Origin: Halomonas sp. LR3S48
Lineage (GTDB): Bacteria; Pseudomonadota; Gammaproteobacteria; Pseudomonadales; Halomonadaceae
Length of the DNA: 64,000 nucleotides
Direction of reading: 5' to 3'
Assembly (NCBI RefSeq): GCF_025725665.1
Contig: NZ_CP107009.1
Span: 2,480,001 to 2,544,000 of the forward strand
This document shows positions 56,857-57,135 of this stretch, one piece after another; position 1 is the first letter of the stretch, and each line of letters begins with the position of its first letter. The translations under genes were made by a program, and so were the position numbers. The notes below the pieces were generated by a model that worked only from the letters and a program-made list of their open reading frames with translations, searched no databases and was not told where the DNA came from.

Positions 56857-56877
56857 CTAAGCGTCCTTTGCGCAGTG

Positions 56878-56898
56878 GTGATCCATACCAGGGATCAC
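56878..56898 (-). promoter_or_regulatory. thrS operator: tRNA-Thr anticodon-arm mimic
   Basis: In the mRNA (minus strand) GUGAUCC pairs with GGAUCAC through 7 perfect base pairs and closes a 7-base loop CUGGUAU. Loop positions match a tRNA anticodon loop: U33, then GGU at 34-36, which is the tRNA-Thr anticodon, then A37. The hairpin ends 21 bases before the AUG, next to AAAGGA. In E. coli ThrRS binds such a mimic and blocks ribosome loading. Confidence 0.75.
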
Positions 56899-56907
56899 AT
56901 GTCGCGG

Positions 56908-56937: not shown

Positions 56938-57070
56938 TCCGGAGTGCAGCCCACCCATTACCCTGGGCGATACGAGTACCGTGCCAAACGGCCTCGCTGC
57001 ACGTCGCGGCAGCCGACAAGACTAACAGAATCGAGCCCTTCTGCGCCACGCCAGGCAGGCTCCAAGAAAG

Positions 57071-57097
57071 CAACAGGGGCACTCGAAGGTGCCCCTG
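57071..57097 (-). terminator. Terminator after the OmpA-family gene
   Basis: CAGGGGCAC (57074-57082) pairs with GTGCCCCTG (57089-57097) over a 6-base loop, followed on the minus strand by T-rich TTGCTTTCTT. Confidence 0.7.
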
Positions 57098-57135
57098 CCG
57101 AAGACGCTAGCGGGCGAATTGCCCGAAACGCTTCC

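Follow-up and report, generated by a model that had tools for sequence, protein, structure and literature searches.

A tRNA anticodon-like arm in the thrS leader of Halomonas sp. LR3S48 is the probable counterpart of domain 2 of the E. coli thrS operator and, in some relatives, a phage attachment site

The leader of thrS in Halomonas sp. LR3S48 contains a hairpin with the geometry of a tRNA anticodon arm. We read it, with a probability of roughly 85%, as part of a translational operator through which thrS regulates itself, namely the arm next to the ribosome site, which corresponds to domain 2 in E. coli, with the same DNA serving as an integrase attachment site in some relatives. A review passage treats domain 2 in E. 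coli as the equivalent of the tRNA-Thr anticodon stem-loop (PMC9976931), and a figure legend describes free threonyl-tRNA synthetase (ThrRS) binding two hairpins and preventing binding of the 30S subunit (PMC3858243). The arm itself is a further member of a known operator type. The point added here, not met with in the papers searched, is that the tRNA mimic is also a phage attachment site and that phages bring copies of the operator with them.

The window, by which we mean the whole stretch of 64,000 nucleotides analysed, carries a full-length ThrRS whose residues 1-630 align with PDB 1qf6 (threonyl-tRNA synthetase). Downstream of thrS on the minus strand are genes which, reading by eye, we take to be infC, rplT and pheS, and the order thrS, infC, rplT, pheS is that of E. 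coli. The features of the leader are collected in Table 1. On the minus strand, 56898-56878 reads GUGAUCC-CUGGUAU-GGAUCAC, seven Watson-Crick pairs closing a seven-base loop with U33, GGU at positions 34-36, A37 and U38. The perfect stem, this loop and the position beside the ribosome site, with 21 nt separating the arm from the thrS AUG, are as originally predicted from the letters of the window, a prediction that named no strand. The foot of the outer helix (56905-56870) adjoins the sequence AAAGGA, to which we assign, from established knowledge, the role of ribosome site.

Table 1. Features of the thrS leader region, in window coordinates
Feature	Position	Strand	Basis
thrS, threonyl-tRNA synthetase, 632 aa	54958..56856	-	ORF; alignment with PDB 1qf6
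AAAGGA, probable Shine-Dalgarno, 8 nt past the arm	56864..56869	-	sequence
Full proximal hairpin with outer helix (GCG/CGC, CA/UG)	56870..56905	-	RNAalifold on 42 genus leaders
CACUG directly 3' of the stem	56873..56877	-	conservation in 109 aligned leaders
Anticodon-arm-like hairpin, 7-bp stem and 7-nt loop	56878..56898	-	sequence, genus conservation, RNAalifold, pair counts, uniqueness in the window
Loop CUGGUAU, anticodon-like GGU at 56889-56887	56885..56891	-	sequence; no change at G35 or U36 across the 109 aligned leaders
Distal three-way structure; hairpin 56950-56970 with loop GGGUAA; possible second ThrRS site	56943..57003	-	conserved in 8 leaders
Terminator-like hairpin between the upstream gene and the leader	57071..57100	-	consensus scan

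An arm of this type (seven pairs, seven-nt loop, U33, G35-U36 and a purine at 37) occurs once in the 64-kb window, both strands considered. By chance, with G-U pairs allowed, such an arm was contained in 34 of 20,000 first-order random sequences of the length of the leader (279 nt). The folding energy is ordinary, with z scores of -0.57 for the 92-nt leader and -1.06 for a 201-nt stretch, and the case for the hairpin therefore rests on conservation. No tRNA gene was found in the window. The arm there is uninterrupted, with no tRNA or element seen in the leader. An attenuator or terminator was rejected as a candidate: no U-run follows the arm, and the hairpin between the upstream gene and the leader is the sole terminator-like site found in the region.

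All 61 genomes searched in the genus have a ThrRS, and 49 of the thrS leaders were read. Seven pairs, G-U allowed, are present in 47 of these; one leader (L040) has six, and in Halomonas sp. NO4 (L011) the stem has been lost through an insertion. The hairpin is thus kept in close relatives. An alignment of 42 genus leaders (A1), from which six near-identical rows and the broken leader of NO4 were left out, has 39 distinct rows in which 99.8% of cells pair and three pairs vary on both sides, two of them in the outer helix. RNAalifold on A1 gives the same 12 pairs. A switch of a stem pair from A-U to G-C accompanies the switch of the loop from GGU to CGU; the loop is GGU in 35 leaders, NO4 included, and CGU in 14.

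How far does the arm extend beyond the genus? A covariance model (R1) built from A1 alone finds the thrS leader of E. coli K-12 at 39.6 bits, with the match ending at the AUG and the next best score there being 6.4. That a model made only from the genus finds the E. coli leader, in the same place, makes the arm the counterpart of domain 2. R1 also finds a match in 94 of the 101 genomes of the family and, at E<=0.01, in 118 of the 370 of the class. The seven family genomes without a match are one genome on its own and all six sampled of a single genus (g277: G433, G454, G469, G480, G491 and G502), in a family where nearly all other genomes match. A second model (R2), built from 39 matches with the broken NO4 leader among them, matches 131 of the 370 class genomes at E<=0.001, and all 76 matches whose thrS position was among those listed are at the thrS start. 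The other 239 class genomes have no R2 match; when 60 leaders, of 74 mapped thrS genes without one, were scanned unfiltered, six weak matches were found in five. It is our impression, by eye, that several others of these leaders resemble degenerate arms. A sample of 199 genomes from the phylum, with the share of other classes unstated, yielded 35 with a match, each matching row being of the window's class. Separately, the window's own genome has a second, weak R1 match away from thrS, at G000:C1:4127573-4127626 (23.1 bits, E 4e-4).

The loop was compared in 109 leaders, picked by model score, comprising 108 from the class and that of E. coli; of the 131 R2 matches 23 were left out, namely that of the window's genome, one from the same family and 21 that were not fetched. 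G35 and U36 are invariant, and position 34 is C in 66, G in 27, U in 9 and A in 7. Position 33 is U in 101, and at position 37 there are 97 A and 12 G. In the CACUG directly 3' of the stem the two C and the U are invariant, with A in 104 and the final G in 108. Stem pairs vary on both sides in many class rows, and the innermost pair is often non-standard (12 of 57 and 31 of 52 rows). Compensatory changes in the stem are present in the alignments of both genus and class, and the RNA structure is under selection. The invariance of G35-U36 is partly a matter of ascertainment, since the model that selected the rows expects these bases; the freedom of position 34 is not so affected. The expectation that stem bases would covary around an anticodon-like loop is borne out, whereas the expectation of a fixed GGU is not. 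With position 34 free and G35-U36 fixed, the arm need not copy one isoacceptor, and the proposal that it has the form of the GGU isoacceptor was too strong: the pattern fits recognition of G35-U36 instead. This means that an operator studied in E. coli reaches, by its sequence, far into its class under a simple rule, with G35-U36 fixed and 34 free.

Read in this way, free ThrRS would bind the arm by its anticodon-binding domain, reading G35 and U36. Once bound it would deny the 30S subunit access to the ribosome site, which starts 8 nt past the arm, and uncharged tRNA-Thr would compete and so lift the repression. Autoregulation by ThrRS through a tRNA-like arm, the mechanism put forward in the original prediction, is well supported, and binding, repression and competition by tRNA in Halomonas sp. 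LR3S48 itself would be expected from the sequence comparison. The window's arm and domain 2 of E. coli are alike in their place before the ribosome site, the 7-bp stem, the 7-nt loop with U33, G35 and U36, and the flanking CACUG. They are unlike in that the E. coli loop is CGU and that of the window GGU. The window also has an outer helix with a sequence of its own, and the operators differ in their upstream part, the window's distal structure being a different one that is found in its subclade only.

This distal structure, at 56943-57003, raises the question of whether the operator is two-armed, as it is in E. coli, with a second ThrRS site acting through an N-GUA loop. We hold this only tentatively, at somewhat less than even odds. 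The structure is common to eight leaders of the window's subclade, and three pairs in two of its helices vary on both sides, a number reached by 6 of 500 shuffles. In the loop of the hairpin a fixed GUA follows G, A or C. None of the changes on both sides falls in the hairpin that carries the GGGUAA loop, however: its stem is invariant (7 of 7 pairs) and thus without support from covariation, and its loop has 6 nt. The reading also presumes that 56943-57003 is transcribed. A model of the structure (R3) gives 12 strong matches and one weak match in 61 genus genomes, with 11 of the 12 strong ones just upstream of thrS; among 101 family genomes only three have the structure, all of the window's genus. 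A scan across the genus for a second, upstream arm with a 7-nt loop gave no enrichment for GU (10 of 117 arms), in a scan that also misses the distal domain of E. coli.

The proximal hairpin might act through some other partner, affecting mRNA stability, pairing with a small RNA or simply obstructing the ribosome, so that the likeness to an anticodon would be incidental. We consider this unlikely in view of the homology with the E. coli leader region and the pattern of conservation in the loop. Rfam 15 returned no family for the window's leader or that of E. coli and gave no match anywhere in the window; its one match in the E. coli stretch is below cut-off and outside the leader.

Insertion at the arm was observed in two relatives, Halomonas sp. 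NO4 and E. coli NZ_CM182088.1. In NO4 (G005) the twelfth strong R3 match is 59 kb from thrS on the same contig. The element that separates them is inside the loop of the arm and has 59,067 bp between two copies of the 11-bp core repeat CCTTGGTATGG. When the flanks are rejoined they give GUGGGCC-UUGGUAU-GGUCCAC followed by CACUG, an arm of seven pairs. Neither junction retains the full stem, so that the arm is broken in NO4, the one leader of the 49 read from the genus in which this has occurred. As thrS persists in this genome, the arm is not indispensable, and NO4 is a natural operator knock-out in which the value of autoregulation can be tested. Between the integrase and the right junction, at L011 1343-1366, there is another close match to the loop of the arm (CCTGGTATGGATC), perhaps the trace of an earlier or tandem insertion.

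The integrase beside the right end of the NO4 element has the domains Arm-DNA-bind_3, Phage_int_M and Phage_integrase, in a frame cut at the end of the locus. Three of its four named relatives adjoin tRNA-Gly(CCC); the fourth starts 274 bases from a contig end, and no tRNA is present there. Nine further matches in 86 genus genomes (35-58% identity) are all flanked by a tRNA or tmRNA gene, namely three tRNA-Gly, three tRNA-Leu, two tRNA-Arg and one tmRNA. The thrS site resembles the tRNA-gene sites of P4-type tyrosine integrases in that relatives of its integrase lie mostly beside tRNA or tmRNA genes, and in the inverted repeat that encloses a loop of 7 bases; a single base distinguishes the NO4 core from that genome's own tRNA-Thr(GGU) gene. 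Unlike those sites, it is in an mRNA leader and not in a tRNA gene.

In E. coli the thrS leader was matched in 5,375 of 5,426 genomes, in 5,305 of them at a single place with at least 80% coverage. One of the other 70, NZ_CM182088.1, has a lambdoid prophage with an integrase between the host leader and thrS. On the host side the leader is 271/272 identical up to the last loop base, where phage DNA begins. On the thrS side phage DNA resembling the promoter-operator continues into the arm, with 232/278 identical when the shared part is counted, and the leader matches K-12 exactly from a point just ahead of the arm. The two junctions place the exchange within the left arm and loop and leave thrS with a phage-borne promoter-operator. 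In this phage-borne leader all 17 pairs of the domain-4 hairpin survive 8 substitutions, with one pair varied on both sides; 16 of the 17 are kept in phage Oslo and in three distinct viral-contig leaders. Folding of the phage-borne leader gives the domain-2 arm in the centroid structure and does not give it in that of minimum energy. The segment is present in 71 of 5,426 E. coli genomes, and a second of these that was inspected also has phage genes before thrS.

In phage vB_SosS_Oslo there is a 78% copy (140/180); it stops within the loop, and the integrase gene follows 181 nt later. Two records among 50,697 match this type of copy, both of them vB_SosS_Oslo. The repeats TTGTGTACCA are found in these phage-borne copies and are absent from the K-12 leader; they are plausibly integrase arm sites. 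Both enteric phages have a diverged thrS promoter-operator within the attachment region, so that their integration can replace the operator rather than break it.

Viral contigs support use of the same site and do not prove it. Two ThrRS scans of IMG/VR gave 48 loci; the thrS start has an arm of seven pairs in 39 of them and of six pairs in one (L472). The other eight (L469, L476-L482) have no arm there, the six-pair match in L479 being elsewhere. In the 40 arm-bearing loci thrS is at the contig edge with its 5' side facing viral DNA; in five whose genes were read by eye, those upstream are tail, tail-fibre, methylase, membrane-protein or unidentified genes. Viral pattern scans gave 94 and 61 stretches, with just six distinct loci having the arm at the thrS start. 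Of six viral records tested, four encode an integrase domain, located close to the end that is distant from thrS. In four of the records with the arm at the thrS start no second core copy was found at the far end and no exact junctions were found, so that insertion exactly at the arm is not established for them.

We think a broader reading probable, if less firmly so than the operator itself. In several lineages of the Gammaproteobacteria, integrases that target tRNA genes would use the thrS operator as attB, because the operator copies the tRNA anticodon arm at the level of DNA as well. Some phages would carry a diverged copy of the promoter-operator, its structure preserved, beside attP, so that ThrRS in the lysogen would be autoregulated through a phage-borne RNA. 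The study of autoregulation through tRNA mimicry and that of phage integration into tRNA genes meet in such an attachment site. If the phage copies work, the feedback loop of an essential gene is taken over unbroken. That the hairpin is kept purely as a DNA inverted repeat or phage recombination core, with no role as RNA, would suit its use for attachment in some relatives, but it is very improbable given that many genomes keep the arm with no sign of insertion, that its place just before thrS is fixed, that the 3' CACUG and the outer helix are conserved as well, and that 34 is free with 35-36 fixed, as recognition by ThrRS would predict.

Sites before thrS have been described previously. A passage on the Vibrio cholerae Aux3 element places att direct repeats in the intergenic region before thrS and describes a P4-like integrase (PMC7721734). 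For the Salmonella wzy locus, one passage proposes an att site before thrS and suspects that an attR deletion touches the thrS promoter (PMC12074656). Both are like the present cases in having direct repeats before thrS. The main texts of the two papers contain neither 'operator' nor 'hairpin'. A third paper names thrS once, in a table of plastic regions (PMC3091717), and these three were the only papers that an open-access library returned on thrS as a site of phage integration. In the open-access papers searched we found no statement linking the thrS operator arm with phage attachment, and we do not claim that none is in print.

Some of the leaders have features of their own. Two genus genomes have a second ThrRS, 60-61% identical to the first (G006:C1:1121901-1123784, with leader L050, and G024:C337:2358-4229), and by eye L050 has no arm. 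In L140, L147, L148 and L170 what appears by eye to be the end of a tRNA gene is directly before the thrS leader, and no arm was found. Two others, L122 (G261) and L163 (G354), seem by eye to have two anticodon-like arms in tandem, and the start codon in L122 is GTG.
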